Shown: piece by piece, positions 44,544 through 61,445 of the stretch | Layout of the letters: each line of letters opens with the position of its first letter | How positions within the stretch are numbered: position 1 is the first letter of the stretch | Assembly: GCF_000158475.2 (NCBI RefSeq) | Contig: NZ_KI392031.1 | Location: forward strand, 526,287-590,286 | Reading direction: 5' to 3' | Origin: Oxalobacter paraformigenes | GTDB taxonomy: Bacteria; Pseudomonadota; Gammaproteobacteria; Burkholderiales; Burkholderiaceae_D | Length of the DNA: 64,000 nt | Notes under the pieces: generated by a model | Seen by the model: the letters and a program-made list of their open reading frames with translations, nothing else | What the model was told of the DNA's origin: nothing | The model's database searches: none | Made by a program: the position numbers and the translations under genes

Positions 44544-44571
44544 AAGGCCTCTCCCTGCCGGGAGAGGCCTT
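44544..44571 (-). terminator. strong hairpin downstream of the first fibre array
   Basis: AAGGCCTCTCCC and GGGAGAGGCCTT form a perfect 12-bp stem around TGCC, 67 bp past the last gene of the array. The T-run on the minus strand is short (TTT), so it may be a terminator or a decayed fibre-gene leader hairpin, which it resembles. Confidence 0.55.
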
Positions 44572-44638
44572 GCGTGAAACAGGACGCCGCGTTCGCTCAT
44601 GGCGCAAATGCGGCGGAAGACGGGGCGGCGACCGGTTT

Positions 44639-45475: not shown

Positions 45476-45486
45476 ACCGGGTCTCC

Positions 45487-46434: not shown

Positions 46435-46445
46435 TCTCTCTCCAT

Positions 46446-46470
46446 AAAAAAGCCTTCCCTGCCGGGAAGG
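46446..46470 (-). terminator. leader hairpin + T-run before module C
   Basis: On the minus strand CCTTCCC/GGGAAGG (plus 46464-46470 and 46453-46459) around a 4-base loop is followed by C and six T, then ATGGAG and the start codon 12 bases on. It lies between the DUF4376 stop and the fibre start. Confidence 0.75.
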
Positions 46471-46533
46471 GGGTGTGACAAAAAACGGGATACCCTGTTG
46501 CGGCCTATCCCGTCACAGAAACGGTTTCTTTTT

Positions 46534-47193
46534 TCAGGCTGCCATGCCGGACGCGATATCGACCGCTTCCAGTTTTTTCACCGACCGGGCCGCGGCAATG
46601 GCGTCGCACAAGGCCCACTTCCGCGCGTAAAGCGCTTCCCTGTGGGCGATGATCTCCAGTTGCAGGGTTTTCAGTTGCGAAAGCCTTAGCTCATGAAACG
46701 TGTTGTCATACGCACGGAACCGGGCCGTTTCCTGCCCTTTCGCTTCCATCGACAAAATAAGGTTCGCAACGTTCCGGCTCGCCGTCTCATCGGCATTAAC
46801 CTCGAACCCGGCAGAAGACAGGCAATGCGCTTTTCCCGAAGCGCTGGCAAAAGCCGCATCCAGTTCGGCGAGTTTCCGTTGCCTGACCGTTTCCAGCGAT
46901 GGCGGAGGCGGTTCCGTCAGGGCGCCTTCCGGGACGATCATGCCGGTTTCGGTGATCGTGTGTTCGGTGCCGTCGGGCAGCCAGTACGTCGTGCCGCGGT
47001 AATCGTAACGGACGCTCCAGCGTCCGTTTCGGAAGACGGCGCATTCGTGTTCGCCGGTGATGGGCGGTTCGAGTTCAGTGGCGTTGGCCGGAATCAGCCA
47101 GACGTCCTTTTCGCGCGGGGACGGTTCGGCCGTGGTTTCGCCGACATAAAGGCCAGCTTCGTCGTATTCATAAACGGTTCGTGTTGCTTTCAT
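46534..47193 (-). CDS. DUF4376-domain tail-fibre assembly protein (module B partner)
   Basis: The protein has 219 residues. The N-terminal half (YEYDEAGLYVGET, RNGRWSVRYDYRGTTYW) resembles phage tail-fibre assembly proteins. The C-terminal half carries a DUF4376-type helical domain with RFRAYDNTFHELRLSQLKTL and ALYARKWAL. It likely folds or caps the fibre encoded just upstream. TAAGGAG is the Shine-Dalgarno sequence, and its TAA is the stop of the fibre gene, so translation is coupled. Nearly identical to the protein at 48284-48943 except in the last ~15 residues. Confidence 0.82.
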   Translation of the reverse strand: MKATRTVYEYDEAGLYVGETTAEPSPREKDVWLIPANATELEPPITGEHECAVFRNGRWSVRYDYRGTTYWLPDGTEHTITETGMIVPEGALTEPPPPSLETVRQRKLAELDAAFASASGKAHCLSSAGFEVNADETASRNVANLILSMEAKGQETARFRAYDNTFHELRLSQLKTLQLEIIAHREALYARKWALCDAIAAARSVKKLEAVDIASGMAA

Positions 47194-47202
47194 GGTTGCT
47201 CC

Positions 47203-48186
47203 TTAATATTTGATGCAGTAGCGGACGGTGATGGACGGCGGCCGGACGGTGTCGGAGGCGCCATAAATCGGATTGGAACGGGAAGCCTCGAATCCAGCCC
47301 GGTAATGGTTTTGACTTCCTGCGTGATAGCCTCCAAATGCGCCTACGTCGATATTATAAAAGGCGCCTGTCTGATAAGCGGTTGCATGGGCAATGGCTCC
47401 CGATACAATCGTTCCTGTCACATTCGGCAAACCGGCCGCCAATACTCTCCCCGCCGTGTCATTACCCTGCATCCAGCGTCCCCGGAAATCCGGCAGATTG
47501 AACGTCGTCAGCCCGTCTCCGCCGTAAGTTCCGCCGATCACCGCACAGAGTTCCGGGTAGGCCGACGGGCTCAGGCTTGCGCCATTGCAATACAGAAAGC
47601 CCTCCGGCGTGATGTTGCCGCCGACGGCGATAATGGTGCCGGCCGGCAGCTTTTCCGCCTTGTCCAGTTTGCCGGCCAGTTCTGCCATGATTTCCCACCG
47701 GTCGGCTTTTTCATTCACAACCGGCATGACCGAGACGCCGAAAGCGGGATTTTCCAGCACCCATTTTTCAAGGCTTCCGTCGTATTGCATTTCCAGCCAG
47801 TGACCATTTCCGGCGATGTCGCCGGGCAAAAGGGGCAAGTTGTTGCCCTTGACGATCGGCAGGGCGCCGGTTTCGTCCGCCCGGAAAGTCGGGGCGGCAT
47901 TCGTGTTGGCCGAACGGGCCCTGACGCGCACATGCATGCCGTGCAGGGGAACCGTTACCGTGTGCGGGAAAACCGCTTCCAGGGCGTCGGAAGTGCCGGA
48001 CGCTTCAGCCTGATACTTTTCCTGCACACCGAAAATGTCGCGCGCCTCCTGCTTGTCACGACTGTCGGTGCCGAAAAGATCCGCGATGAATTGCCGGAGG
48101 TTGCCCATCGCGAGCCGGAATTCGCCGGTCGTTGTTTCAGGCTCTTTCGTGCCCTCCAGCAGGTTTCTGTCGGGTAGTCTGGTCAT
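47203..48186 (-). CDS. phage tail-collar fibre protein (module B)
   Basis: The protein has 327 residues from the ATG at 48186, with GGAGACACC before it. A longer frame to 48321 runs through the terminator hairpin and is not real. The N-terminus MTRLPDRNLLEGTKEPETTT and mid-section match modules A and C. After the KLDKAEKLPAGTIIAVGG hinge comes a collar domain (EGFLYCNGASLSPSAYPELC, GGDGLTTFNLPDFRGRWMQG) and a distinct tip ending YGASDTVRPPSITVRYCIKY. The role is a receptor-binding fibre. Confidence 0.88.
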   Translation of the reverse strand: MTRLPDRNLLEGTKEPETTTGEFRLAMGNLRQFIADLFGTDSRDKQEARDIFGVQEKYQAEASGTSDALEAVFPHTVTVPLHGMHVRVRARSANTNAAPTFRADETGALPIVKGNNLPLLPGDIAGNGHWLEMQYDGSLEKWVLENPAFGVSVMPVVNEKADRWEIMAELAGKLDKAEKLPAGTIIAVGGNITPEGFLYCNGASLSPSAYPELCAVIGGTYGGDGLTTFNLPDFRGRWMQGNDTAGRVLAAGLPNVTGTIVSGAIAHATAYQTGAFYNIDVGAFGGYHAGSQNHYRAGFEASRSNPIYGASDTVRPPSITVRYCIKY

Positions 48187-48197
48187 GGTGTCTCCAT

Positions 48198-48224
48198 AAA
48201 AAAAGACCTTCCTGCAAGGGAAGG
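48198..48224 (-). terminator. leader hairpin + T-run before module B
   Basis: CCTTCC/GGAAGG (plus 48219-48224 and 48207-48212) is followed on the minus strand by TC and seven T, then ATGGAGACACC-ATG. It sits between the DUF4376 gene of module A and this fibre gene. Confidence 0.75.
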
Positions 48225-48283
48225 CCGGGGTGGCATAATAAAAAAGGCGCGTGTGCGCCCGGTAATCAATGACGGTGCCGTTT

Positions 48284-48943
48284 TCAGACGGGCTGGTCAA
48301 AGGTAATGTCGATGTTTTCAAGCGCTTTTACCGACCGGGCGGCGGCAATCGCATCGCGCAAGGCCCATTTCCGGGCATAGAGCGCTTCCCTGTGGGCGAT
48401 GATCTCCAGTTGCAGGGTTTTCAGTTGTGAAAGCCTTAGCTCATGAAACGTGTTGTCATACGCACGGAACCGGGCCGTTTCCTGCCCCTTCGCTTCCATC
48501 GACAGGACAAGATTCGCGACATTTTGGCTTGCCGTCTCATCGGCATTAACCTCGAACCCGGCAGAAAACAGGCAATGCGCTTTTCCCGAAGCGCTGGCAA
48601 AAGCCGCATCCAGTTCGGCGAGTTTCCGTTGCCTGACCGTTTCCAGCGATGGCGGCGGCGGTTCCGTCAGGGCGTCTTCCGGGACGATCATGCCGGTTTC
48701 GGTAATCGTGTGTTCGGTGCCGTCGGGCAGCCAGTACGTCGTGCCGCGGTAATCGTAACGGACGCTCCAGCGTCCGTTTCGGAAGACGGCGCATTCGTGT
48801 TCGCCGGTGATGGGCGGTTCGAGTTCAGTGGCGTTGGCCGGAATCAGCCAGACGTCCTTTTCGCGCGGGGACGGTTCGGCCGTGGTTTCGCCGACATAAA
48901 GGCCGGCTTCGTCGTATTCGTAAACGGTTCGTGTTGCTTTCAT
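48284..48943 (-). CDS. DUF4376-domain tail-fibre assembly protein (module A partner)
   Basis: The protein has 219 residues, a close copy of the protein at 46534-47193. It shares the same N-terminal assembly-like half and DUF4376 half, with differences concentrated in the last ~15 residues (ALENIDITFDQPV here). It is translationally coupled to the module A fibre through TAAGGAG, nine bases separating stop and start. The near identity next to fibres with different tips suggests recent duplication or gene conversion of the unit, with the chaperone serving a conserved part of the fibre. Confidence 0.82.
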   Translation of the reverse strand: MKATRTVYEYDEAGLYVGETTAEPSPREKDVWLIPANATELEPPITGEHECAVFRNGRWSVRYDYRGTTYWLPDGTEHTITETGMIVPEDALTEPPPPSLETVRQRKLAELDAAFASASGKAHCLFSAGFEVNADETASQNVANLVLSMEAKGQETARFRAYDNTFHELRLSQLKTLQLEIIAHREALYARKWALRDAIAAARSVKALENIDITFDQPV

Positions 48944-48952
48944 GGTTGCTCC

Positions 48953-49954
48953 TTAATATTTGATGCAGTAGCGGACATTTATTGACGGGGGACAGACTGT
49001 ATCGGAAGCGCCGTAGATGCCATTCGACAGGGAAGCGTTGAAAACCACCATTGCAGGGCCGCCCGTATTGGAGTTGTAGGCTCCGGAACCGCCGCCAGTA
49101 TAGGAGCCTGCAAAAACGCCTGTTCCGTTGGGTTCCGGGCCGTAAGACCAGCAAAAGTCGGTTATCGTACCGTAGAGATTCGGCAACCCTGCCGCCAGTA
49201 CGCCTCCTGCCTTGTCGCTCCCTCTCATCCACCGGTTCCGCAAATCCGGCAGATGGAACATCGTCGCGCCATCGCCGCCATAGGTATAGCCGATGACGGC
49301 AAAGAGTTCCGGGTAAACGGAAATCAGCAACGGGGCGCCGTTGCAGTGCAGATAACCGTCTGGCGTGACGTTGCCGGCGACGGCGATCACGCTGCCGACG
49401 GGTATTTTTTCGGTGTTGTCGAGTTTTCCGGCCAGTTTTTCGTCCAGTTCCGTTTTGTCGGCTTTTTCCGCCAGTTTCGGTTCCATGAACGCGTCAACCG
49501 AGACGCCGCAGGCCGGGTTTTCGAGCACCCATTTGTTCAGGGTGGCGTCGTATTTCATTTCCAGCCAGTGGCCGTCCCCGGCGATGTCGCCGGGCAAAAG
49601 GGGCAGGTTGTTGCCCTTGACGACCGGCAGGGCGCCGGTTTCGTCCGCCCGGAAAGTCGGGGCGGCATTCGTGTTGGCTTCTTTGGCCCGAACTTGCGCG
49701 TGCAGGCCGTGCAGCGGTTTCAGGATGGGCGGGGTGAAGGCGGCCGTCAGGGCGTCGGCCGTGCCGGCGGCGTCGGCGCGGTATTTTTCCTGTGCGCCCA
49801 GCGTGTCGCGGGCGTCCTGTTTTTTCGAGCTGTCATTGCCGAGCAACTCGGCAATGAATTGCCGGAGGTTGCCCATCGCGAGCCGGAATTCGCCGGTCGT
49901 CGTTTCAGGCTCTTTCGTGCCTTCCAGCAGGTTTTTGTCGGGAAGAATAGCCAT
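48953..49954 (-). CDS. phage tail-collar fibre protein (module A, first of array 1)
   Basis: The protein has 333 residues. The N-terminus MAILPDKNLLEGTKEPETTT and the shared mid-section lead to a helical hinge (KLAEKADKTELDEKLAGKL), a collar domain (GYLHCNGAPLLISVYPELFA, GGDGATMFHLPDLRNRWMRG) and a tip ending YGASDTVCPPSINVRYCIKY. The closing motif is shared with module B, while the ~70 residues before it are unlike any other module. This is the first gene of a six-gene minus-strand operon. The ATG is preceded by GGAGAAAAC following a hairpin and T-run. Confidence 0.88.
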   Translation of the reverse strand: MAILPDKNLLEGTKEPETTTGEFRLAMGNLRQFIAELLGNDSSKKQDARDTLGAQEKYRADAAGTADALTAAFTPPILKPLHGLHAQVRAKEANTNAAPTFRADETGALPVVKGNNLPLLPGDIAGDGHWLEMKYDATLNKWVLENPACGVSVDAFMEPKLAEKADKTELDEKLAGKLDNTEKIPVGSVIAVAGNVTPDGYLHCNGAPLLISVYPELFAVIGYTYGGDGATMFHLPDLRNRWMRGSDKAGGVLAAGLPNLYGTITDFCWSYGPEPNGTGVFAGSYTGGGSGAYNSNTGGPAMVVFNASLSNGIYGASDTVCPPSINVRYCIKY

Positions 49955-49965
49955 GTTTTCTCCAT

Positions 49966-49994
49966 AAAAAAAGGCCTTCCTGCCAGGGAAGGCC
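49966..49994 (-). terminator. leader hairpin + T-run before module A
   Basis: GGCCTTCC/GGAAGGCC forms a perfect 8-bp stem (plus 49973-49980 and 49987-49994), followed on the minus strand by seven T and then ATGGAG. No gene lies upstream on this strand, so it cannot be the terminator of a preceding gene. It must act on the fibre transcript itself. Confidence 0.75.
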
Positions 49995-50007
49995 TGTGTC
50001 GGTCAAT

Positions 50008-50029
50008 AAAAAAGGGCGCAAACGCGCCC
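50008..50029 (-). terminator. second, promoter-proximal terminator in the array 1 leader
   Basis: GGGCGC/GCGCCC (plus 50014-50019 and 50024-50029) around AAAC is followed on the minus strand by six T. It lies between the promoter candidate and the module A hairpin, giving two tandem attenuator-like structures. Confidence 0.7.
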
Positions 50030-50038
50030 CACACCCTT

Positions 50039-50069
50039 ATTTTAAGGGGAAATTTTTTTTCGGTCAGCT
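50039..50069 (-). promoter_or_regulatory. promoter candidate of fibre array 1 with shared 12-mer
   Basis: On the minus strand CTGACC (plus 50062-50067) and TAAAAT (50039-50044) are 17 bp apart. The 12-mer TTTCGGTCAGCT at 50058-50069 recurs at 60132-60143 and 61434-61445 ahead of the other fibre units. Confidence 0.55.
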
Positions 50070-50156
50070 CAAACCGGCCGTTTTTTTATTTTATTTTCAT
50101 GAATTTGAGGTTATAGTCGCGTTTTGTTTTTTCTTTTTTCTGGAAGGACATTCGTT

Positions 50157-50621
50157 TTGAGAATTCTGAAAGCGCAACCCGAGGATCTGGGCGTGATTCT
50201 GGCCTTGCAGTACCGTGCCTATCGCAGTGAAGCCCGATTGCTGGGCAATGACCGGATACCGCCTCTGATGCAGACGCTGAAAGAGGTGGAAAAGGAATTC
50301 AGGGAAGGCATTATCCTGAAAGCGGTGGATGAAGCCGGGGTGATTATCGGTTCGGTCAGGGCGCGCGAGGAAGGCGATACGCTTTATATCGGCAAGCTGA
50401 TGGTCTTGCCGGAAAAGCAGGGCCGGGGCATCGGGACGCAATTGCTGGTCGCGATCGAAAAATCGTGTCCGAAACCGCGCTACGAACTGTTCACGAGCAA
50501 CATCAGCATCAAAAACCTGAAGCTCTATGAAGGGCTGGGATACAAACGCTTCAAAGAAGAACAGGTGACGCCCAACCTGAATTTCGTCTATATGGAAAAG
50601 GTAATGAAAACGCCTGCCTGA
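50157..50621 (+). CDS. GNAT-family N-acetyltransferase
   Basis: The protein has 154 residues. I chose the TTG at 50157 because GGAAGG lies nine bases upstream and the fold begins at LRILKAQPEDL. The frame is open to 50124 but without a ribosome site. It has the acetyl-CoA binding pattern LMVLPEKQGRGIGTQLL and a C-terminal NLKLYEGLGYKRF. The acceptor is unknown. It diverges from fibre array 1 with ~200 bp between them and has no functional link that I can see. Confidence 0.88.
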   Translation: MRILKAQPEDLGVILALQYRAYRSEARLLGNDRIPPLMQTLKEVEKEFREGIILKAVDEAGVIIGSVRAREEGDTLYIGKLMVLPEKQGRGIGTQLLVAIEKSCPKPRYELFTSNISIKNLKLYEGLGYKRFKEEQVTPNLNFVYMEKVMKTPA

Positions 50622-51483
50622 GCGGAAGGCGAAAAAGCTCGGGAAGACGGCAGCCCGGATTATTCCGGCTGCCGTTTTGGTTTGTTTGGCCCGAAAAAGG
50701 CGCCTGGCCTGCCGGAACCGGTTCCCGCGAGGGAGACGGTGTCTTTTTCATCAGGTTTCGACCGTTTCTTTTTTCATCCCTGCGCTTCCGGCTCGCGAGC
50801 CGGGAAGTCCGCTTGCCGGGATTGGCGGGGACAGGTCCGGGGCGTCCGGTTCTCCCGCCGGGCAGGGAGGAGGCCTTGGACGCGGGAAAAGAAAAGGCCT
50901 TTCTTCCTGACAACCGGCCGAAGGCCATGAACGGGACAGTGTCATACGTCTTGACAAGGCGCATCGCATCGCGGGTTTTGCCGCCTTGCGGGAACCCGCC
51001 TGTTTCCGGAGGGGAAAAGCGGCTGTGCGGACCGGTCGCTGTTTGCTGAACGGGCGCGAAGCGGGAAGGATACAGCCGCCTGAACGTTGCGCCTTGCCTG
51101 CGCCAGACGGTATCGGCGGGGCAGGGTGTTCAACAGCGGGAACGGAAAAGTGTCCAAACACTTTTTTGCTGCAAGGCAGGGAATGAAGTAAAGTGGCAGA
51201 CGGAGCCGTCATGGCGGTTCCGGAGGGCTGAACACCCTCTGCTTAACTCGGCTGGCAACCGATAAAGTGCTACCGACGTATGCCAGCGTGCGGGTTTATA
51301 CTCGCGCGTTGGTGGCGGCGGTTGCACATTTTTTATGTGTGCAAAAACAACATGATCGGGTTTTCGATAAAACATACTTGTTTTGTTAATTGACTCGCAA
51401 GTGACGCACAAGCGGTACTGAACATACCTTGACTGAGCGACATTTGCGGGTCGATAGCCAATGTCGGTTCTCGTCTTCAGTCA
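50622..51483. other. gene-poor interval leading to repeat copy A
   Basis: No gene is supported. From about 51170 the composition shifts to lower GC with several short stem-forming words (for example around 51300-51350), which may reflect a fragment of a mobile element. The left half is GC-rich filler. Confidence 0.45.
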
Positions 51484-51573
51484 AACGGGACGGGCGGGTG
51501 TCTGTGAATAAAAGACCTTCTCCGGAAGGAAATAAGCAGGCAGTGTAGTTAGGGCTGTGTTCAGCACCCGCTC
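51484..51573. repeat. direct repeat, copy A
   Basis: About 90 bases matching 52013-52102 with roughly ten mismatches. Both begin AACGGGACGGGCGGGTG and end near TGTTCAGC-CCCGC. The copies lie 529 bp apart in the same orientation and flank a small ORF. Confidence 0.75.
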
Positions 51574-51608
51574 TCCCGACCCTCGCACGGTCGTAACCGG
51601 ACGAACAC

Positions 51609-51815
51609 ATGAATGACGAAGAGACCTTTTTTATCGCCGATCTGGGCGAACGCAGGGAAATTTTCATTAACGGACAAACCGAAAAAATCCCCCGGTACGT
51701 GGTCTGGAACAAAGCGGCGACAAAAATCGTTGAGCAGAGTGACGATCTGTCTTATCTGCTGGACAAGTATCGTCTGTCACGCATCCACGTGCTGAAGTAT
51801 CGTCGTATTGAATGA
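51609..51815 (+). CDS. small orphan protein between direct repeats
   Basis: This 68-residue, charged, soluble-looking protein (ETFFIADLGERREIFING, YVVWNKAATKIVEQSDDL) has one predicted beta-alpha-beta stretch. It has normal coding composition but no strong Shine-Dalgarno sequence and no known family that I recognise. It lies between two ~90 bp direct repeats, as a cargo gene of a small mobile unit would. Confidence is limited by its length. Confidence 0.45.
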   Translation: MNDEETFFIADLGERREIFINGQTEKIPRYVVWNKAATKIVEQSDDLSYLLDKYRLSRIHVLKYRRIE

Positions 51816-52566
51816 TTCAGGCCAACGGCTTGCCGGGTGGGGCAGCCGGTCGCCGTCGCGGCGCGAACGGTCTGAACCGGAATCGCGGTTTGCCGGCCGG
51901 ATGCCAATGGCTTGTCCGGACTGGCGGACAAAACCCTGGCCGGTTTTGCCGGTTCTTTTGTCTGCCGTTCAGGACTGGCCTGCCGCTTGCGAGCCGGTTT
52001 TCTTTTCAATCGAACGGGACGGGCGGGTGGCTGTGAATAAGAGACCTTCTCCGGGGGGAAATCAGCAGGCAGTGTCGTTAAAGCTGTGTTCAGCGCCCGC
52101 TTTCCAGGCCATACCGTGGCGGCGCGGCAAAACGGGCAGCGTGCTGCTGCCGCTGATGTCGGGAGACGCGCCGGGCTGTTTTCTTATTCTTGTCGCTAAG
52201 GTATCGCCGAACCGGAAAAGGCTTCCGGCGCGCGCCGGAGCAAGGCGTTTGTGGCGCTCCGGTTACGGCGGCGGTGTTCACGGTTTTTTCTTCTGTTTCC
52301 GTCTGTTTGTCCTTGTTTTCCAACAGCGGCAGGGCCGGGTTTGACGGGTTTGCCCGGAGGCGCGGAAAAACGTGTCCGCTTCTCTGAAAGCATGCCGGGG
52401 CGGAAGGAGGTTGTGGCTTCTGAAACGCTGAATGCGGCCCGATCCGGCTTGCCGTTCGGGGTTCATGCCGCGCCGCTTCGGAGGGAACGGTCTTGCGGCA
52501 GGGCGGGAAAAGGCCGCGCAGCGAGCCGGGAGCGTGCGGCGTTTTGCGCCGTCAGGGAAACGGGGG
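51816..52566. other. interval with repeat copy B, otherwise empty
   Basis: Apart from the direct repeat at 52013-52102 there is no supported feature. The long plus-strand frames that start here are antisense shadows of the giant Sel1 gene. Confidence 0.5.
52013..52102. repeat. direct repeat, copy B
   Basis: The same ~90-base sequence as 51484-51573. What follows it (CTTTCCAGGCC onward) does not resemble what follows copy A, so the duplication is limited to the repeat. Confidence 0.75.
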
Positions 52567-55500
52567 TTACCGGCCCATTTCGTTCAGCCTTTTTTGCGCC
52601 TTGGCATTGCCGTTTCCGGCGGCCAGCGTGTACCAGTGGATGGCTTGCGCCCTGTCTTTCGGCACGTCCGATCCGGATTCATGGTACCGGCCAAGCAGGT
52701 ATTGCGCGCCGGGCTGTCCCCGTTCGGCCGCTTCGCGCACCAGGGCAAGGCCTTTCTTTTTGTCGATGGGGGTTCCCGTTCCGGACAGGTAGCAGTTTCC
52801 CAGCAGAAAGAGGGCGGTGGGATCGCCGTCGCGCGCGCCTTCGGTGTACCAGTAGAAGGCTTTTTTCGTGTCCTTTTGGGTGCCAAGGCCCTGTTCGTAA
52901 AGGAAGGCGAGGGCGCTCTGGGCGTCGCGGTGTCCGGCCTTGGCGGCCAGCAAGTGCCAGTGGAAGGCTTTGGCGTGGTCTTTGGGCACGCCCAGTCCCA
53001 TCTGATAGCGCATGCCCAGATCGTAGCGGGCTTCGGCAAAGTCGTGTTGCGCGGCTTTTTCCGTCCAGTAAAACGCCTTTTTTTCGTCTTTTTCGACGTA
53101 AAAGCCCTTGTCGTAAGCGCGGGCAAGCCGGTATTGGGCGATTTCATCGTCGCCGTTCGCCGCTTTTTCAAGCCATCCAAAGCCCGTTGCCCTATCCTGC
53201 GGCAGGCCGATGCCGTAAATGTAAAGCAGGGCCAGATGGTATTGCGCCGCCGGGTCGTCCTGCCGGGCGGCGGCATGCAGGAGCGTGGCGCCGCGGCTTT
53301 CGTCTTTCGCTGTGCCGCGGCCGTCGATCAAGGCCAGTCCGGCTTCCCGCATGGCTTCCACGTTTCCCGATGCGGCGCTCTGGCTGTACCAGTAAAAGGC
53401 CTGGGCGTCGTCCCGGGCGAGGCCAAGGCCTTCCCTGTAGAGGATGCCGAGCGCGTACTGGGCTTTGGGGAAGCCCGCTTCGGCAGAGCGCGTGTACCAG
53501 TGGGCGGCTTTGGCGAAGTCCTGTTCGCCGCCGTCTCCGGTGTCATAGCAGCGCGCCAGCCCGAATTGGCCGCCGGGTTCGTCTTGCCGGGCCGCTTTTT
53601 CAAACCAGAGGCAGGCCATTTTTGCGTTTTGGGGAACGCCCATCCCTTTGCTGTACAGTACGCCAAGCAGGTTCTGGGCTTCGGGCTGGCCTTTTTCGGC
53701 GACCGGGACAAGGATGTCCAGCGCTTTTCCGGTATCTTTTGGGACGCCGTTTCCGAGCAGGGTCATGTAGCCCAGCACGAAGGAGGCGTCGAGGTTGCCG
53801 TTACGGGAAGCCTTTTCGATCCAGAAGGCGGCCTGTTTTTCGTTTTTTGCAACGCCATGTCCGTTCCAGAGGGCTTTCCCGGTCATGTACTGGGCCTCAG
53901 CATAGCCGGCTTCGGCGGCCTGAAGAAAGGAGGCGAAGGCTTTTTTGGGGTCTTGCGGCGTGCCACGGCCTTCCTGATAACAATAGCCGAGGTAATGGAG
54001 GGCGGTCGGGTCGCCGGTTTGCGCCGCGTTTTCCAGCAGGGCAAAAGCTTTTCCGTCGTTTTTTTCGCTGTCAGGCGCGATGAGCAGTTGAAGGGCCTCG
54101 ACGATGTCGCCTCTGGCGTTGTCGTCCCTGGTGACAGGCGGCGCGTTTTCCGCGGGATCGGACGCCCGGAAAGCGGCCGTTTGCGCGGTCCGGTTCCATC
54201 CGCTTTCCGACAGGGCTTGGATGGCGTCGGGCTGGTTTTGCGCGGCCGCTTTTTCCAGCCACTGGCGGCCTTTTTCCGGGTTTTGGGGAACGTTTTTTCC
54301 CAGGAGATAAAGCGTTCCCAGCAGGTACCGGGCGTCGGCATTTCCCTGTTCGGCGGCCTCGGTCAGCCATGTCAGGGCGGTTTCCGTTTCGTCGAAAGCA
54401 GCAAGGCTTGCCAGGGCGAGGATAGCGGCCTGATAGCGGGCCTGTGCCGGGCCCTGTTTTCCGGCCTTGACGAGCCAGCTTGCGCCGCTTGCCGGATCGG
54501 CCGGGCCGCCTTCGCCGTTGAGCAACATGAGGCCATAGGCATGCTGTGCGTTCGCATGGTTTTGCGCGGCGGCTTTTTCGAGCCATTGCCGCGCTTTGGG
54601 CTTGTTTTCCGGAATGATATCGCCATCGCGGAAAGCAAGACCCAACTGGTATTGGGCTTCGGCATGGCCGTTTTTGGCGGATTTTTCCATCCACCGGAAA
54701 GCTTCCGCGGGATTTTTTTCGCCGCCTTCCCCATTGAGCGTCAGGACACCCAGCCAGTATTGCGCTTCGGCGTGACTCTGGTCTGCCGCCTTGCGATACC
54801 ACTGGCGCGCGGCTTCGGGGTTTTCAGGAAGGCGCTTTCCGATGTGGTTTTCCACTCCAAGGCGGTACTGGGCCGCCGGGTCGCCGTTTTCGGCCGCTTT
54901 TTCCAGCCATTGAAGCGCCATGGCGTCGTTTTTCGCGGTGCCGCTTGCATTGGTGTAAAGGAGGGCCAGTTTGTACTGGGCTTTCGTATCGCCCTGCCGG
55001 GCCGCTTTTTCGTAAAGGGCAAACGCTTCTTCCGGGTTTTCCGGACCGCCCAGTCCTTCCAGCAGGCAGGTCGCCAGCCAGTATTGCGCCTTGACGTGGC
55101 CCTGTTCGGCAGCCTGGCGGTACCACCGGCGGGCGGCTTCGAGGTTTTTGGGGATGCCTTCTCCGTTATGGTTCAGGATGCCCAGCGTGTACTGGGCGTC
55201 GGCATTCCCGTTTTTGGCGGCTTTTTCAAACCAGACGAGGGCTTTGCTGACATCTTGCGCGTCACTTGTTCCTTCCTGAAGACAATGGGCATACCAGTAT
55301 TGCGCTGTGGCATAGCCCTGTTCGGCGGCGCGCCGGTACCATTCGCATGCCGCTTTCAGGTTTTTGGGGATGCGTTTTCCGGTATGGTTTTCCGTGCCCA
55401 TCCAGTATTGGGCGTTGGCGTATCCCTTTTGCGCGGCTTCGCTTATCCATCTGAGCGCGGTTTTGGCCGATTCGGGGGAAGAGTCGTGAGCCAGTATGGC

Positions 55501-57150
55501 TTGCCCCCTGAAATACATGCCTTGCGGATCGCCCTGCTGCGCCGCTTCCAGAAGCAGGCGGGCTCCCGTTTTCGGATCGGCCGGGCCGCCTTCGCCGTTT
55601 CCCAGCATGAGGGCATAGGCGCTTTTCGCCGCGGCATGGTTCTGTGCGGCCGCTTTTTCCAGCCATTGCCGCGCTTTTTGCTTGTCTTCGGGAACACCCC
55701 TTCCGTCCCGGTAGGCCTGGCCGAGCAGGTATTGGGCTTCGGGCTGGCCGTTTTCCGCCGCGCGGGAAAGCCATTTTCGCGCTTTCGTCTCGTCTTTGGC
55801 GACGCCTTGTCCCGCATGGTACATCCGTGCCAGATTGAGCTGGGAGAGGGGATCGCCGTATTGTGCCGCTTTTTCAAACCAGATGAAGGCTTGCCCTTCG
55901 TCTTTGGCGACGCCTTTGCCGGCAAAATAGGCGCCGCCCATCATGTTTTGCGCCTGAATGTCGCCTTTTTCGGCGGCGCTTTTGAGGTAGGGAATGGCTT
56001 TTTCCGGATCGGCAACGCCACTTTCGTCATGAAAGAGCAAGGCGCCGAGCAGGAGTCCCGCCTCGGTATGGTCCTGTGCGGCGGCTTTTTCAAGCCAGAG
56101 GACGGCTTCTTTCCGGTTTTGGGCAACGCCGACGCCGGCGGTCAGCATTTTGCCGTAGAGGTTCTGGCTTTCCGCGTCGCCCGCTTCGGCGGCACGGCGG
56201 TACCAATAGGCCGCTTTTTTCATATCGACGCCGACGGCAAGGCCGGACTGATAGAGCGATCCCATCAGGCGCGTGGCTTCCAGATCGTTCCTTTCAGCCG
56301 CTTCTTCTACCCATTGGACGGCCTGTTTCGCTTCGTCGGGATTGTCTTTTTGCCGGGAATAACGCAGGAGATATGCCATTGCCAGCGACAGTTGCGCTTG
56401 CGGCCAGCCGCCTTTGGCCGAACGCACGAGCCATTTCCGCGCTTCGTCCGGGTTTTGGGGGAGGCCAGCGCCGTTTTTGTATTGTTTGTAAAGATGGTAT
56501 TGCGCCTGTGCGTTGCCTGCATGGGCCGCTTTTTCCAGCCATCCGGCCGCTTCCTTTTCGTTTTGCGGCAGGCCGACGCCGTAAAGCAGGGCCAGTCCCA
56601 TGCCGGTCTGCGCTCCGACATGGCCGTTTTCCGCGGCGATTCGGTACCAGTACATCGCTTCCCGTTCGCTTTTGGCCGTTCCCCGGCCTTTGGCGTAGCA
56701 GCCGGCGAGCCAGTACTGGGCGTCCGGCAGGTTTTGCCGGGCGCTTTGCAAAAACCAGTCGAAGGCTTTTTGGGGGTTGACGGTCGTGCCTTTCCCGGAC
56801 AGATACATCAGGCCGAGAAAATATTGCGCATACGGTTCGCCGGCTTTGGCCGCTTCCTCAAACCGGAGGCGGGCGGCGTGCCAGTCCGGTTTGCCGGCAA
56901 GGCCCGAGGCCCGGATTGCCCCCGTCAGGGTTTTCATCAGCGGATCATCTGTCACCTGTTCCGCTTTTTCCAGCGCTTTTTCCAGCTCCGTGTCCGCCGG
57001 GAAGGCGTTTTGCCGGTTTTCTGCGGCGGAAAAGGAGGCATACGGATCCAAAGCCGTCGCAACGGCATGGGCGGCCGGCCCGCTTGCGAGAAGCGCCGCC
57101 AGACACAGGGCAGGGAGCGCGCGGGAGAGAAAGGAAGGGAAAAAGGGCAT
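52567..57150 (-). CDS. giant exported Sel1-repeat protein (1527 residues)
   Basis: The start is the ATG at 57150, giving the signal peptide ALPALCLAALLASGPAAHA. The open frame continues to 57816 but without coding character. Roughly 36-38 Sel1 repeats of ~36 residues run from about residue 65 to the end. They are broken by one linker of ~45 residues near 1000 (TAAFRASDPAENAPPVTRDD) that divides the protein into two solenoids. Typical Sel1 proteins have 200-600 residues, so this is exceptionally long. No enzymatic domain is present. It should form a long periplasmic or outer-surface superhelix for protein binding. The high internal repetition makes expansion and contraction by recombination likely. 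Confidence 0.88.
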   Translation of the reverse strand: MPFFPSFLSRALPALCLAALLASGPAAHAVATALDPYASFSAAENRQNAFPADTELEKALEKAEQVTDDPLMKTLTGAIRASGLAGKPDWHAARLRFEEAAKAGEPYAQYFLGLMYLSGKGTTVNPQKAFDWFLQSARQNLPDAQYWLAGCYAKGRGTAKSEREAMYWYRIAAENGHVGAQTGMGLALLYGVGLPQNEKEAAGWLEKAAHAGNAQAQYHLYKQYKNGAGLPQNPDEARKWLVRSAKGGWPQAQLSLAMAYLLRYSRQKDNPDEAKQAVQWVEEAAERNDLEATRLMGSLYQSGLAVGVDMKKAAYWYRRAAEAGDAESQNLYGKMLTAGVGVAQNRKEAVLWLEKAAAQDHTEAGLLLGALLFHDESGVADPEKAIPYLKSAAEKGDIQAQNMMGGAYFAGKGVAKDEGQAFIWFEKAAQYGDPLSQLNLARMYHAGQGVAKDETKARKWLSRAAENGQPEAQYLLGQAYRDGRGVPEDKQKARQWLEKAAAQNHAAAKSAYALMLGNGEGGPADPKTGARLLLEAAQQGDPQGMYFRGQAILAHDSSPESAKTALRWISEAAQKGYANAQYWMGTENHTGKRIPKNLKAACEWYRRAAEQGYATAQYWYAHCLQEGTSDAQDVSKALVWFEKAAKNGNADAQYTLGILNHNGEGIPKNLEAARRWYRQAAEQGHVKAQYWLATCLLEGLGGPENPEEAFALYEKAARQGDTKAQYKLALLYTNASGTAKNDAMALQWLEKAAENGDPAAQYRLGVENHIGKRLPENPEAARQWYRKAADQSHAEAQYWLGVLTLNGEGGEKNPAEAFRWMEKSAKNGHAEAQYQLGLAFRDGDIIPENKPKARQWLEKAAAQNHANAQHAYGLMLLNGEGGPADPASGASWLVKAGKQGPAQARYQAAILALASLAAFDETETALTWLTEAAEQGNADARYLLGTLYLLGKNVPQNPEKGRQWLEKAAAQNQPDAIQALSESGWNRTAQTAAFRASDPAENAPPVTRDDNARGDIVEALQLLIAPDSEKNDGKAFALLENAAQTGDPTALHYLGYCYQEGRGTPQDPKKAFASFLQAAEAGYAEAQYMTGKALWNGHGVAKNEKQAAFWIEKASRNGNLDASFVLGYMTLLGNGVPKDTGKALDILVPVAEKGQPEAQNLLGVLYSKGMGVPQNAKMACLWFEKAARQDEPGGQFGLARCYDTGDGGEQDFAKAAHWYTRSAEAGFPKAQYALGILYREGLGLARDDAQAFYWYSQSAASGNVEAMREAGLALIDGRGTAKDESRGATLLHAAARQDDPAAQYHLALLYIYGIGLPQDRATGFGWLEKAANGDDEIAQYRLARAYDKGFYVEKDEKKAFYWTEKAAQHDFAEARYDLGMRYQMGLGVPKDHAKAFHWHLLAAKAGHRDAQSALAFLYEQGLGTQKDTKKAFYWYTEGARDGDPTALFLLGNCYLSGTGTPIDKKKGLALVREAAERGQPGAQYLLGRYHESGSDVPKDRAQAIHWYTLAAGNGNAKAQKRLNEMGR

Positions 57151-57793
57151 GGTGTTCTGGGCGGTGAGGCGTGTGCGCACGGTGTTGACGGTATTGAAAA
57201 TGATCTTAGCAGGTCGGGAAAGTGTCGTGAAGCGTTCGGTGGAATCAGTGGGGAAAGTGCGACAGGGAGCGACAACATGCGGGCGATCGGTTGTCCCGCC
57301 GTTTTTGGCGGGGTGGCGCCGGAACGGTTTGAAACCGGGGGAGAGGGAAAACCGGAAACGGGGAAAGCGGAAAAACGGGAAAGCGGGAAAGCGGTCAGCC
57401 GTGGATGGCGTTTTTCGCTCTGGATGGGAATGTCCGTCTGGCGGGCGACAGGTGTGCCCGAAGAGGGCTTTTCTGCCCGGTTTTTCCCGCCACGCGGGTT
57501 GGGGGGCGATCTGGCGCGGGTTGTGTGCCGTTCGGCGGGGTTTTCTTTTGAAAAAAACGGCATGGCATGGCGGGGGCAGGTACCCGGCTTTCCTGTCTGT
57601 CCGGTTCGGCGTCATGTCGGGAGAGAAAAAGTGGGGGGTAAAAAAGCGAACAGCGTCATGGCGGGGTGTCGTGCCCGGAGGCAGGCTGGCTTTCATTCCC
57701 GATTTGTCCCACCGGCTGGCGGGCGAAACCGGCGGGAGCCGGCAGGAGGCCCTGCCGGTTTTTGCAGCCGCTTTTTTGCCGGTGTCCTTTGGA
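57151..57793. other. gene-free interval before fibre array 2 end
   Basis: About 640 bp with no supported gene. The first ~60 bases upstream of the giant Sel1 gene contain the likely promoter. The rest is GC-rich without recognisable structure. Confidence 0.5.
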
Positions 57794-58597
57794 CTAGACC
57801 CGGTTGATGGCGGCATGAAAGGCCTTGATGCAGGGCAAGAGCGTCAGGGCAGGGGGCTGGACAGTATCGGAAGCGCCGAACAGTGCGTTGCTTCTGCTTA
57901 AATCCGTTGCGACAGAACAGTTCACAAACCATTCCGATCCGCTGGCGGAAGAGGAGGGATTCACGATGGAATTGCTCGCGTGCAGGGAATGAAACATGCC
58001 GCTCATCGCTATTTCCGCCAGATCATGTGTTGCGCTTGGCGAGTTTTTGGCGGCAAAGCCGGTAAAAGTGCCGGTGGCGTTAGGCAATCCGGCTTCCTTC
58101 ACCGTTCCCGGTGTCGCGCTGCCTTCGGCAAACCGCCCGATCATGTCCGGCAGATTGAAGGTGGTTTCCCCGTCGCCGGCTCCGAAGGCGGTTCCGATCG
58201 CGGAAAAGAGTTCCGGATACATGTCCCGCCCGACAGCCGCGCCGTCACATTTCAGATAGCCGGCAGGCGGTTCGGCCATCGCGAAATAGTGAACGCTTCC
58301 GACCGGTACGCCGCTTTCGGCCATTGCCTGTATGGCGGCTTCCAGTGTGCTTGCGTCCGTCTTGGCGTCCAGTTCGGACCGGTCGGCCTTGTTTCGGGCC
58401 AGAACGTCAAGGCGGCTCTCCAGTTCCGCCAGATCAATGCCCAGCGCCAGCCGTGCCGCTTCCTTGTCGGCACTGTCTTCCCCCAGCAGTTCATTCAGAT
58501 AGTCCCGCAGTTTGCCGAGGGCGTCTTTCATTTCCCCCGTGGTCGTTTTCGGCAGCTTGCTGCCGTCCAGCAGGTTTTTTTCAGGTAATTGGGTCAT
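57794..58597 (-). CDS. phage tail-collar fibre protein (module D, array 2)
   Basis: The protein has 267 residues from the ATG at 58597 (GGAGAACGAC upstream; ATG 58627 and others are in the leader). The N-terminus MTQLPEKNLLDGSKLPKTTT and the segment KLRDYLNELLGEDSADKEAA are almost identical to module F. The hinge is a short coiled coil. The collar domain has PPAGYLKCDGAAVGRDMYPE and GAGDGETTFNLPDMIGRF. The tip of ~95 residues differs from all others until the closing ALFGASDTVQPPALTLLPCI. It is the last gene of array 2. Confidence 0.88.
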   Translation of the reverse strand: MTQLPEKNLLDGSKLPKTTTGEMKDALGKLRDYLNELLGEDSADKEAARLALGIDLAELESRLDVLARNKADRSELDAKTDASTLEAAIQAMAESGVPVGSVHYFAMAEPPAGYLKCDGAAVGRDMYPELFSAIGTAFGAGDGETTFNLPDMIGRFAEGSATPGTVKEAGLPNATGTFTGFAAKNSPSATHDLAEIAMSGMFHSLHASNSIVNPSSSASGSEWFVNCSVATDLSRSNALFGASDTVQPPALTLLPCIKAFHAAINRV

Positions 58598-58609
58598 GTC
58601 GTTCTCCAT

Positions 58610-58638
58610 AAAAAAGACCCGCTTCACCGAAGCGGGTC
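58610..58638 (-). terminator. leader hairpin + T-run before module D
   Basis: GACCCGCTTC/GAAGCGGGTC forms a perfect 10-bp stem (plus 58616-58625 and 58629-58638). Six T follow on the minus strand, then ATGGAGAACGAC-ATG. Confidence 0.8.
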
Positions 58639-58726
58639 ATGACAAAATAAAAATCGCTCTTGAAAGCGGCGTTTCCAGCGGGATGCGCCGGGGTACGCGA
58701 TGGGCCGCTATTGCCCGTTCCGAAAG

Positions 58727-59068
58727 CTAGCGATGAAGGTGGATATGGATTTCCAGTCGCTGGAACGGTTCCGCTTGTATTTCCCTTTCCGGCCCGGCTT
58801 TGGTTTCCGGTTCCGCTGTGGCCGTAACAGGCGTTTCGCTGAAAGAGGAAGCGGGCGTTGCGGAAACCGCCGCCGCTTCCTGTCCGGTCATGGCCGGTTT
58901 TTCCGCAAGGGGCAGGGAAACGGCAGGCGCAGTGAACCGGCCATCGGCGTAAACATGGCCCGTCTGTACGTGGCCGGGGGCCTCGATCCACCGGAAATCA
59001 GGGTGAACGTCGAACGGGACAGCGGCCGTTTCGATGACGCGGCCGGTTTTATCAATGAGTGCGTGCAT
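58727..59068 (-). CDS. small tail-fibre partner protein
   Basis: The protein has 113 residues from the ATG at 59068, with AAAGGAG seven bases upstream. Residues 1-50 (MHALIDKTGRVIETAAVPFD, WIEAPGHVQTGHVYADGRF) match the style of short proteins that follow phage tail-fibre genes. The rest is a Pro/Ala/Thr/Glu-rich, probably disordered tail. It starts 11 bp after the stop of the glycine-rich fibre gene and ends 89 bp before the module D hairpin, so it belongs to array 2. Likely a fibre-assembly helper for module E. Confidence 0.7.
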   Translation of the reverse strand: MHALIDKTGRVIETAAVPFDVHPDFRWIEAPGHVQTGHVYADGRFTAPAVSLPLAEKPAMTGQEAAAVSATPASSFSETPVTATAEPETKAGPEREIQAEPFQRLEIHIHLHR

Positions 59069-59079
59069 GATGTTCTCCT

Positions 59080-60009
59080 TTACCATTCGATGTAACAGGC
59101 ACCGGGCAAACCGGCTACCGTGCCTCCGCCGCCGGCGCCGACTGTTACCGCTACGGCTTCTCCCGGTGTCACCGTGATATAAGCCGCGACACTTCCGCCC
59201 GAACCGCCGACAGAGGAGGCATCCTTTGCGCTTCCGCCTCGGCCTGCCCCAAAACTGTAAGTGTCTATCCACCCGCCGCAGGCAAAGGTCTTGGCGGGGA
59301 CGCTGCCGCCACCCGAAGCACGGCCCGCGTTGCCTGCCGTTGCAATGCAGGGGCCTGTAGCCGAGCCTGCCGCGCCGGCTCCTCCCGCGACCTCATCGTC
59401 ATACCCGCCGCCTCCGCCGGGAGCCGTTGCGTACGCGCCGAAACTGGTCACCCCTCCGGCGCCGCCTGTACCGTGATACCACCCGCCGCCTCCACCGCCG
59501 CCCACACACATCACAAATACCTGTGTCACCCCGGCAGGTACCGTAAAGATGCCGGATGAGGTGAAAAGCTGCATCCCGTGCCGGAGGGCGGATATCCGGT
59601 TATTGACATAATTTTTAATCCCTTCACTGGTCACAGGCCGCGTACTCCCGGCTGTGGGCGTGCTGTCGGCGATAATGCCGTAGCTCTCCAGCGTATCCGA
59701 CCTTTCCGGTTTGTTTGCCAGATGGTTGTAGTCGCCGGTGGTAGCGACAAGGGAAAGCTCGTTTTTGTTCGCTTTTTCCTCCAGCGCCGCGTCAACCGCC
59801 TGTTTGTCGGCTTTGGAAGCGATGCCGTCATTCAGGCGGCTGATGTCGATGCCGAGGGTTTGGCGGGCGGTTTCCTTGTCCGAACTTTCGTCGCCGAAGA
59901 GTTCGAAGAGGAATTGGCGGATATTGCCCATCGCGAGCCGGAATTCGCCGGTGGTGGTTTCGGGGTTTTTCGTGCCGTCGAGCAGTTCTTTTTCTGGCAG
60001 TTTTGTCAT
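59080..60009 (-). CDS. tail fibre with glycine-rich adhesin tip (module E, first of array 2)
   Basis: The protein has 309 residues from the ATG at 60009. The N-terminus MTKLPEKELLDGTKNPETTT, GEFRLAMGNIRQFLFELFGD places it with the other modules. A helical hinge and a TGDYNHLANKP...PVTSEGIKNYVNNRI segment follow, then a tip that replaces the collar with poly-glycine runs (GGGGGGGW, GGVTSFG, GGGGGYDDEV, GGSGGSVA) and ends GLPGACYIEW. Gly-rich tips of this kind occur in T4-like adhesins and many prophage fibres, where they form polyglycine-II sandwiches with variable loops. Swapping a collar tip for a Gly-rich one on the same base shows modular exchange. Confidence 0.86.
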   Translation of the reverse strand: MTKLPEKELLDGTKNPETTTGEFRLAMGNIRQFLFELFGDESSDKETARQTLGIDISRLNDGIASKADKQAVDAALEEKANKNELSLVATTGDYNHLANKPERSDTLESYGIIADSTPTAGSTRPVTSEGIKNYVNNRISALRHGMQLFTSSGIFTVPAGVTQVFVMCVGGGGGGGWYHGTGGAGGVTSFGAYATAPGGGGGYDDEVAGGAGAAGSATGPCIATAGNAGRASGGGSVPAKTFACGGWIDTYSFGAGRGGSAKDASSVGGSGGSVAAYITVTPGEAVAVTVGAGGGGTVAGLPGACYIEW

Positions 60010-60021
60010 GGTTTTCTCCAT

Positions 60022-60053
60022 AAAAAAAGACCCCGCTTCAAATGAAGGAGGTC
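60022..60053 (-). terminator. leader hairpin + T-run before module E
   Basis: An imperfect hairpin pairs GACC/GGTC at the base and CTTCA/TGAAG at the top (plus 60029-60053), followed on the minus strand by seven T, then ATGGAGAAAACC-ATG. No gene precedes it on this strand. Confidence 0.7.
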
Positions 60054-60547
60054 TGTGTTGATCTTGCTTGCGGTTTTCAGTTTTCCGGGCGCAATCTGGG
60101 CGCCACAGGGGAATGGTAGTATAAAAAAATTTTTCGGTCAGCTGCTGTCGCGTATCGGACTCTGGCGCAACCTGTTGGCGCGTTGCCGCTCAGGATATGC
60201 CTTAAGCCGGTTTTCCGGCAACAGGCTGGCGCTCTCCGGCATGCTTTTTTTGTGAGGTGATGGGCCAGCGCCTTGCCTGAAAAGACGGCTTTTTTTACCC
60301 TGTCCGGTAAAGGTTTCCGGGAAAACGGAATCCGCGGGCCGGAATAAGGGCGTCCCGGTTTTCCGGCCCGCTTCTCTTTATGGCGCCGACCGGTCGGGGA
60401 CGGTGGCAATGGCATGTTCTCATGTTTGTCCCTGTTTTCCACCGGCAAGTCGTTGGGACAATCCCCGAATCGCTCAGGGTTTTGCCCACTGGCCGGCTTG
60501 CCTGTTTGAAAAGCCGGCCGGCGTCCCCTGAGCGGTGCACGGTTTTT
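60054..60547. other. gene-free interval between fibre units 2 and 3
   Basis: The interval holds the array 2 promoter candidate and GC-rich sequence without a gene. The word GGGCGCCACAGG at about 60099 recurs near 61401 upstream of module F, so the two leaders share more than the 12-mer. Confidence 0.5.
60113..60143 (-). promoter_or_regulatory. promoter candidate of fibre array 2 with shared 12-mer
   Basis: CTGACC (plus 60136-60141) and the weak box TACCAT (60113-60118) are 17 bp apart. TTTCGGTCAGCT lies at 60132-60143. The -10 is poor, so activation by a factor bound at the 12-mer is possible. Confidence 0.4.
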
Positions 60548-61318
60548 TTATGCCTGGAAGGCTTTGACGCAGGGAAGCAATGTCAGGGCCGGGGGCTGGA
60601 CGGTATGGGAGTTGCCGTAGATGGGGGACGATCTGGAGGCATTCAGATTGAGCCAGTTTTTATACAGTATCCACCCTTCCGGATTGCCCACTTTCGGTGC
60701 ATCAGACCAGTTATCGTTCCAGTAAGCCGCTCCACGTATTTCGCCTGAAGTGGTCGCCAAATAGGCTGATGCGGTAATGTTCGGCAACCCCGCTTCCCTG
60801 ACCGTTCCGGGCGTGACACTCCCTTCGGCAAACCGCCCGATCAGGTTCGGCAGGTTGAAGGTGGTTTCTCCGTCGCCGCTCCCGTATGTGTCCTTGATCG
60901 TCGCGTAAAGGTCGGGATACGTTTCCCGCCCGACGGCCGAGCCATCACATTTCAGGTAACCGGCCGGCGCTTCGACTGCCGTAAACATGACGATGGTTCC
61001 AACCGGAATTCCCCCCGTCACGATTTTTTCTTCAAGTGCCTGCAAGCGGCTTTCCAGCACAGTTTTATCGACCTTGTCCTGAACGGCTGTTTCGATGGCG
61101 GTTATGGCGTCCTGACCCGCTTTCATGTCGATTTTTGCGTCCAGTTCCGCCAGATCAATGCCCAGCGCCAGCCGTGCCGCTTCCTTGTCGGCACTGTCTT
61201 CCCCCAGCAGTTCATTCAGATAGTCCCGCAGTTTGCCGAGGGCGTCTTTCATTTCCCCCGTGGTCGTTTTCGGCAGCTTGCTGCCGTCCAGCAGGTTTTT
61301 TTCAGGTAATTGGGTCAT
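60548..61318 (-). CDS. phage tail-collar fibre protein (module F, solitary)
   Basis: The protein has 256 residues from the ATG at 61318 (GGAGAACGAC upstream). Residues 1-~70 match module D almost exactly. A coiled-coil hinge (ITAIETAVQDKVDKTVLESR) precedes a collar domain (PAGYLKCDGSAVGRETYPDL, GSGDGETTFNLPNLIGRF), followed by a short unique tip with GAAYWNDNWSDAP and the shared end YGNSHTVQPPALTLLPCVKA. No partner gene follows it. It is a separate single-gene unit with its own promoter-like element. Confidence 0.88.
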   Translation of the reverse strand: MTQLPEKNLLDGSKLPKTTTGEMKDALGKLRDYLNELLGEDSADKEAARLALGIDLAELDAKIDMKAGQDAITAIETAVQDKVDKTVLESRLQALEEKIVTGGIPVGTIVMFTAVEAPAGYLKCDGSAVGRETYPDLYATIKDTYGSGDGETTFNLPNLIGRFAEGSVTPGTVREAGLPNITASAYLATTSGEIRGAAYWNDNWSDAPKVGNPEGWILYKNWLNLNASRSSPIYGNSHTVQPPALTLLPCVKAFQA

Positions 61319-61330
61319 GTCGTTCTCCAT

Positions 61331-61362
61331 AAAAAAAGACCCCGCTTCAAATGAAGGAGGTC
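61331..61362 (-). terminator. leader hairpin + T-run before module F
   Basis: The same imperfect hairpin as module E (plus 61338-61362), followed on the minus strand by seven T, then ATGGAGAACGAC-ATG. It stands directly in the leader with no upstream gene to terminate. Confidence 0.7.
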
Positions 61363-61414
61363 TTGTCGGTTGGTGTTTTCCGGTTTTCGGGCGCAACCCG
61401 GGCGCCACAGGGAG

Positions 61415-61445
61415 AATGTACATCATGAAAAAGTTTCGGTCAGCT
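61415..61445 (-). promoter_or_regulatory. promoter candidate of module F with shared 12-mer
   Basis: CTGACC (plus 61438-61443) and TACATT (61415-61420) are 17 bp apart, with TTTCGGTCAGCT at 61434-61445. Confidence 0.45.

Follow-up and report, generated by a model that had tools for sequence, protein, structure and literature searches.

Q proteins and the regulator AlpA of Pseudomonas aeruginosa load onto RNA polymerase with the help of a promoter element and an early pause, and then prevent terminator hairpins (PMC7969949, PMC9371919). In the accessible parts of these two reports, AlpA is described as recognising its promoter element and needing a promoter-proximal pause, with intrinsic terminators directly upstream of the first gene and two unlinked operons under its control. 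For the gene transfer agent of Caulobacter, the accessible text of PMC11150451 describes an antiterminator, GafZ, whose promoter element lies between −35 and −10. Here we describe a family of leaders that precede orphan tail-fibre genes in a 64,000-nucleotide (nt) stretch of the Oxalobacter paraformigenes genome (the window; G000:C2:526287–590286 of a 2.49 Mb genome), and whose anatomy suggests that they may belong to a phage-derived, processive antitermination regulon. Regulation of this kind is known; what appears to be new is its scale, together with the signature of the leaders and the family of the regulator. Among the literature matches listed, with subscription papers mostly outside the search, we found no description of this system and none of the orphan-fibre phrases, and the sole paper naming both tailocin and Oxalobacter was a maize-rhizosphere study.

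Leaders of the fibre genes in the window

Our initial annotation held that six fibre genes of the window are headed, on the minus strand, by a hairpin, a run of T residues, an ATGGAG ribosome site and the start codon, and all of these elements are present at each of the six places. The six hairpins have folding energies of −12.4 to −18.2 kcal/mol, and the distance from the end of each to the ATG is 16–17 nt. A promoter motif and a first hairpin had been overlooked: upstream of the terminator at 61331, 60022 and 49966, GCTGACCGA is followed by a 17-nt spacer (counted from CTGACC to TANNNT), a TANNNT −10 motif and a GC-rich hairpin (hairpin 1) that ends TTGCGCCC and lies near the predicted +1. 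The terminator stands between promoter motif and gene at these three sites, an anatomy that supports the earlier suggestion of attenuators relieved by antitermination.

In the leader of unit A (61318..61444, minus strand, as for all window features below), GCTGACCGA begins at 61444, the −10 motif TACATT occupies 61420–61415 and the predicted +1 is 61408; hairpin 1 (61406–61390, with TTGCG at 61396–61392) is followed by the terminator stem (61362–61338) with T7, by ATGGAG and by the fibre start at 61318. The unit B leader (60009..60142) has GCTGACCGA from 60142, TACCAT at 60118–60113, a predicted +1 at 60106, hairpin 1 at 60104–60088 and a terminator stem at 60053–60029 with T7 before the fibre start at 60009. 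At the head of a three-unit array (49954..50068), GCTGACCGA runs from 50068, TAAAAT lies at 50044–50039, and a predicted +1 at 50032 precedes hairpin 1 (50030–50013) and the terminator stem (49995–49972), both with T-runs, the fibre starting at 49954.

The sites at 48198, 46446 and 58610 lie inside gene arrays and have no promoter motif. They come after short same-strand genes, of which the one that was profile-tested is of fibre/assembly type. Here a weak hairpin (58668–58655) and a terminator stem (58638–58616, T6) precede the fibre start at 58597 (leader 58597..58668); a hairpin (48260–48245) and a terminator stem (48226–48205), each with a T-run, precede that at 48186 (48186..48260); and a hairpin with T-run seen by eye (46512–46486) and a terminator stem with T-run (46470–46453) precede that at 46434 (46434..46512). 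The annotation had also stated that no gene lies upstream at three units, which holds at 49966, where a 165-aa open reading frame (ORF) diverges; at 60022 the upstream neighbour is a same-strand fibre gene that ends ~0.5 kb away, and for 61331 it is a long ORF, again on the same strand, ending ~0.7 kb away.

A sigma-70 consensus scan returned 1 promoter-like site where 4.2 were expected and caught just one of the three promoters, so that the promoter assignment rests on the alignment of the leaders and not on the scan. Folded singly and compared with shuffles, four of the six leaders gave z values of −2.29 to −5.44 and two were weak (−1.15 and −1.55). RNAalifold yielded 3 pairs only on the leader alignment, because the second stems do not align, and stems were then compared one by one. 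Across the region 44500–63000, both strands together hold 63 terminator-like sites, against 37.5 ± 5.6 in shuffles.

In profile searches the encoded proteins matched PHROG tail families in 6/6 cases and the Collar domain in 4/6. They comprise the fibres of unit A (60548..61318, 256 aa, Collar) and unit B (59080..60009, 309 aa), a 267-aa fibre with a Collar domain (57794..58597), and the three fibres of the array, of 333 aa (48953..49954, Collar), 327 aa (47203..48186, Collar) and 315 aa (45487..46434), with a 219-aa fibre/assembly-type protein (DUF4376; 48284..48943) among them. Between both fibre clusters lies a gene for a 1749-aa protein with 27 Sel1-repeat stretches (52567–57816).

Leaders across two genomes

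From 15 aligned leaders we built a sequence model, R1, covering the promoter and hairpin 1; it was later rebuilt as R2. In a genus sample of 13 Oxalobacter genomes (7 of them at least 90% complete), R1 matches were confined to two, the window genome (G000) and a second one (G001), and R2, run with stricter filters across 245 family genomes, found the same two only. At E ≤ 5, R2 gave 16 places in G000 and 26 in G001. Two of these 42 were dropped (G000 47336, inside an ORF, and G001 1897145, with no leader-like layout) and two were added (G000 818252, from the tail locus, and G001 1605812, from the R1-stage genus search), giving a set of 42 and a total of about 40 leaders in the two genomes. Leaders without a terminator were kept in all counts, start codons of several leaders were hand-picked from protein N-termini, and some leaders were first located through a TTTTTTATGGAG pattern.

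GCTGACCGA, the 17-nt spacing and TANNNT are invariant in 15/15 aligned leaders; in a wider alignment GCTGACCGA occurs in 21/22, the remaining one reading GCTGACAGA. Beyond the sigma-70 hexamers there is thus a 9-nt invariant block overlapping the −35 region, as an activator site could, and one activator could serve all sites. If GCTGACCGA were such an ordinary, PrtN-like activator site, the terminators would only dampen or insulate, and no antiterminator would be involved. An activator alone would, however, still meet the terminators between promoter motif and start codon, and would leave the pause-like block and the phage parallels described below unexplained. PF11112 (PrtN) had no match above cut-off in any of the 13 genus genomes, and PrtN was rejected as the regulator. 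We regard activation alone as unlikely.

A shared fibre N-terminus marks 23 genes in the two genomes (10 in G000, 13 in G001), and each of them is headed by a terminator hairpin, here ending 14–27 nt before the start, extending to 23/23 what had been claimed for the window. The promoter motif precedes 14 of these genes; the remaining nine have the terminator only, sometimes plus another hairpin, and five of the six promoter-less genes in G001 sit in a fibre cluster at 1575–1584 kb. A folding-based scan, which replaced an earlier bulge-free scan that scored fewer leaders, detected at least one terminator in 36/42 leaders (60 in total), compared with 1–7/42 in 20 shuffles, and still in 36 once hairpin 1 was excluded. 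Since the models stop at hairpin 1, the later hairpins played no part in the model searches. The distance from a terminator end to the start codon is at most 40 nt in 30/42 leaders, as against 8/143 other ORFs (at least 250 aa, picked mechanically from ten loci).

The initial annotation had noted that stems differ while the structure stays, and this is borne out by 30 distinct pair strings in 36 leaders; as each sequence was folded, the pairs are canonical by construction, which makes these varied stems and not formal covariation. Classical leader attenuation, in which alternative RNA folds or a local response to translation or a ligand would select fibres singly, would fit the presence of both a first hairpin and a terminator in the 5′ leader, and stems that differ among leaders. 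Against it, one simple test gave no sign that the 5′ arm of the terminator pairs with the upstream leader beyond expectation (36 leaders, mean z +0.45, 1 below −2), Rfam had no match at gathering threshold anywhere in the window, and the leader type is common to unlike genes. We consider such attenuation even less likely than activation alone.

The fibres behind the leaders are of two N-terminal types, MTKLP and FKPFA, with PHROG tail-fibre matches. Their cassettes are paralogous: across 210 pairs of 21 fibres, the N-terminal 50 aa have a median identity of 62% and the C-terminal 100 aa of 24%, so that some similarity reflects descent. The hairpins might be leftovers of duplicated cassettes or stabilisers of mRNA 5′ ends, with a terminator likeness that is incidental or leaky and without a regulatory role. 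Yet the stems change while hairpin and T-run stay, in 23/23 fibre genes and before unrelated genes, and mRNA stability does not need tandem terminators. This is the least likely of the explanations we considered.

The leader is not limited to fibre genes but also heads two kinds of tail operon and repeat-family proteins. It precedes proteins starting DYFG or FENHFG, which have no family matches and are often followed by genes reading as Sel1-repeat; a single DYFG leader can hold as many as four or five hairpin/T-run sites. One leader, a weak model match without a terminator, stands before a pesticin-lysozyme-domain protein. Near-identical copies occur, among them four FENHFG leaders and the pair 731594 and 1646267.

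Several side observations were made at these and other loci. Beyond several DYFG-type genes (L123, L124, L125, L092, L096, L038) a TTGACC or CATAAT promoter-like stretch lies before the Sel1-like genes, which would fit separate expression of a partner or immunity gene. At L040 (G000:C2:1645845–1646323) a leader copy precedes an ORF that diverges from the fibre sequence after ~52 residues; its neighbours are baseplate genes and a gene for a protein of 2045 aa that has a PBECR1 nuclease-like domain. L075 (G001 1649773) has a GCTGAGCGAA promoter copy and no terminator before a HATPase-like/DUF4325 protein adjoining an orphan fibre. L013 and L014 (G000:C2:984946 and 1333149) encode the same 78-aa protein, which by eye reads as ribosomal L28, with TTTTTTATGGAG before the start and no GCTGACC leader. 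The frames of L038:4699–7199 (G000:C2 ~726.7–729.2 kb) repeat GRTLTGAWIET and VAPSRVRGLK and look like an array of clustered regularly interspaced short palindromic repeats read as protein.

Tail operons headed by the same kind of leader

A contractile tail operon in G001 (1210–1220 kb) is headed by a leader with its promoter at 1209246. Eight of its ten ORFs, profile-tested, have tail-type matches (DUF3383, KPP10_Orf10, phage lysozyme, spike, Baseplate_J, DUF2612 and Collar), and one baseplate-hub match fell under its cut-off. Both genomes also have a lambda-J-like tail operon, and its leader is a variant that reads GCTGACAGAA, has 16-nt spacing and lacks TTGCG; this variant is a weak model match in G001 (E = 0.345) and none in G000. 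Judged from ORF lists only, no head genes were seen with the tail operons. By ORF list and sequence, the window genome has no fibre gene beyond gpJ, so its fibres may be the dispersed ones only.

A pause-like element near the predicted start

In lambda, polymerase pauses at +16/+17 of pR′. The TTGCG block of the leaders (pattern G..TTGCG) fits the consensus pause of core polymerase, given as G−10Y−1G+1 in the accessible part of PMC4604602. TGYG with a G at −10 or −11 falls at a predicted RNA 3′ end of +14 to +16 in 34/42 leaders, with both G in 22, whereas shuffles gave TGYG in a mean of 9.2 leaders (maximum 17) and both G in a mean of 0.7; the block is inside the models, so that its frequency among matches is partly selected, for which the shuffle control is no cure. 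The informative part of the signal is its distance from the −10 motif, +1 being a prediction, together with its fit to the consensus.

A candidate regulator and its viral relatives

A common antitermination factor, which the initial annotation proposed to look for, is a natural reading of such a set, and a candidate gene was found. The protein family, designated P0007, has 116/117 aa, is 64% identical between both species and occurs once each in the same 2/13 genus genomes as the leaders. The gene is upstream of the lambda-J tail promoter in both genomes, at a distance of 140 nt in G001; in G000 the gap is ~0.86 kb and takes in two small ORFs. These two ORFs (L117:14550–15185), absent between in G001, look by eye like a BrnT/BrnA toxin-antitoxin pair. 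An exact LexA box (CTGT-N8-ACAG) was absent from the ~1 kb before the gene in either genome, each having one site with 1 mismatch.

A first structure model from two sequences was poor (predicted local distance difference test score, pLDDT, 46.6); with 49 sequences the model is all helices (pLDDT 76.3). In 399 order genomes the P0007 profile matched its own gene and two remote relatives, G001 not being among the matches there. Used alone as query, P0007 had no IMG/VR relative and one irrelevant phage-record match (E = 0.9); an alignment including the two remote relatives finds 65 IMG/VR loci. In a viral scan with E. coli QuuD, the best 80 matches were all 100% identical.

Fifty-five of the 65 loci were extracted and 51 left after removing repeats or short ends. 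A module of −10 motif, hairpin and terminator follows the P0007 homologue in 17/51 loci, against 15/510 control windows, and under a stricter test in 12/51 against 2/153. By eye, several loci have, directly after the homologue, a promoter with TTGAC, then a hairpin containing TTGCGCCC or GTGCGCCC, then terminators, with terminase-like ORFs beyond; GAGTTGCGCCC is present in several. In the reverse direction, of 20 loci picked solely by TTGAC...GAGTTGCGYCC, seven have a family member 0–39 nt upstream, several of these being related sequences and one weak (E = 0.008); family matches occur nowhere else in those 20 loci. On IMG/VR contig L285 there is an exact copy of an O. formigenes leader, with no family member in the stretch examined.

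Discussion

Taking together the promoter motif, the pause-like motif, the hairpins and terminator anatomy, the dispersal of the leaders, their co-occurrence with the candidate gene and the phage module, all of which can be read in the DNA, we infer a scheme of start site, termination, pausing, binding, antitermination and joint induction. A phage-late-type regulon would have been captured by the Oxalobacter chromosome. A sigma-70-type promoter, its −35 region embedded in GCTGACCGA, would fire, and polymerase would pause near +15 at the consensus pause (G..TTGCG), which is also part of the 5′ hairpin. By default it would then halt at one to several terminators ahead of the start codon. The small, probably helical P0007-family protein, encoded upstream of the lambda-J-like tail operon, may join polymerase at the promoter while it is paused and carry it past later terminators, as lambda Q and Pseudomonas AlpA do, so that the dispersed fibres and the repeat-family genes associated with them would be switched on jointly with the tail operons.

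We give a probability of about 0.58 to the reading of the leaders as promoter-proximal terminators of a captured, phage-derived Q/AlpA-like processive antitermination regulon. Since some terminators are internal to operons and some stand in tandem, the economical explanation is processive antitermination. The initial annotation had further suggested that one fibre might be made at a time. This found no support: one type of leader is common to the orphan fibres and the tail operons, an argument for switching them jointly, and three of the six window sites lie in arrays without a promoter motif, so that those fibres would need polymerase to come past earlier terminators.

Several points weigh against the antitermination reading. 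In the window species the candidate gene is not immediately adjacent to the tail promoter, and this, with the partly selected pause count, lowered our confidence slightly. Both lambda-J leaders, which stand beside the candidate gene, lack TGYG and have 16-nt spacing; 8/42 leaders overall lack TGYG, 6/42 lack any terminator, and by eye no −10-like pause element was recognised. Given the near-identical copies, the leader counts are not independent. Pfam, PHROG and NCBIfam assign neither P0007 orthologue to a family, save a sub-threshold rve_3 match, and the helical model has no fold match in the PDB at E ≤ 0.001. Comparison of P0007 with Phage_antitermQ (PF06530) by hhalign gives a weak profile link (probability 24%, E = 8e-4); one remote relative has matches to phrog_79 (Q-like, E = 0.013) and PF06530 (E = 0.054, short of the cut-off), both weak, and the second relative has no Q match. 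These comparisons do not establish P0007 as a homologue of known Q proteins. Among the viral loci, 34/51 fail the module score, including the closest viral homologue by E-value (L132, 48%).

More tentatively, and at somewhat less than even odds, P0007 may represent a new phage antiterminator family, with a GAGTTGCGCCC-type pause/hairpin leader, that Oxalobacter captured to run a distributed tailocin. Tail bodies would be encoded in one place, in the window species apparently without a fibre gene, while alternative fibres and repeat-family proteins would lie scattered and silent behind terminators until released together by one protein. The proposed regulon would have dozens of dispersed antitermination sites, against two operons reported for AlpA in the accessible text, and would give a testable answer to how scattered tail fibres are co-expressed with the particle they decorate. 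The signature of promoter element, TTGCG hairpin, terminators and P0007-family gene would let such phage late promoters be found by sequence, and it hints that a gut commensal may make narrow-spectrum antibacterial particles.

The captured regulon proposed here can be set beside four known systems. In the pyocin regulon of Pseudomonas, PrtN is the one regulator of scattered tail-type bacteriocin genes; the Oxalobacter leaders differ in carrying terminators, and the genus has no PF11112 protein above cut-off. In lambdoid Q modules the order is small regulator gene, late promoter, terminator and late genes. The Oxalobacter set resembles them in this order and has a pause-like motif where they have an early pause (PMC9371919, in part), and differs in that its terminators stand just before the start codon, its copies are dispersed and the link of P0007 to Phage_antitermQ is weak. 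Like GafZ, as far as the accessible text of PMC11150451 goes, it would be a case in which an antiterminator turns on phage-like genes carried by the host, with many dispersed leaders in place of one target; the comparison made here is one of layouts. The AlpA regulon, according to the accessible parts of PMC7969949 and PMC9371919, is alike in its promoter element and its terminators just before the first gene, and it needs a pause for which the Oxalobacter leaders have a candidate motif. The AlpA element (GGGACG..) lies between −35 and −10, whereas GCTGACCGA overlaps −35; P0007 is not recognisably related to AlpA by the searches done, and the Oxalobacter system is known from sequence alone. 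Where AlpA controls two operons, the Oxalobacter leaders number about 40 sites in two genomes and embrace both tail fibres and tail operons.

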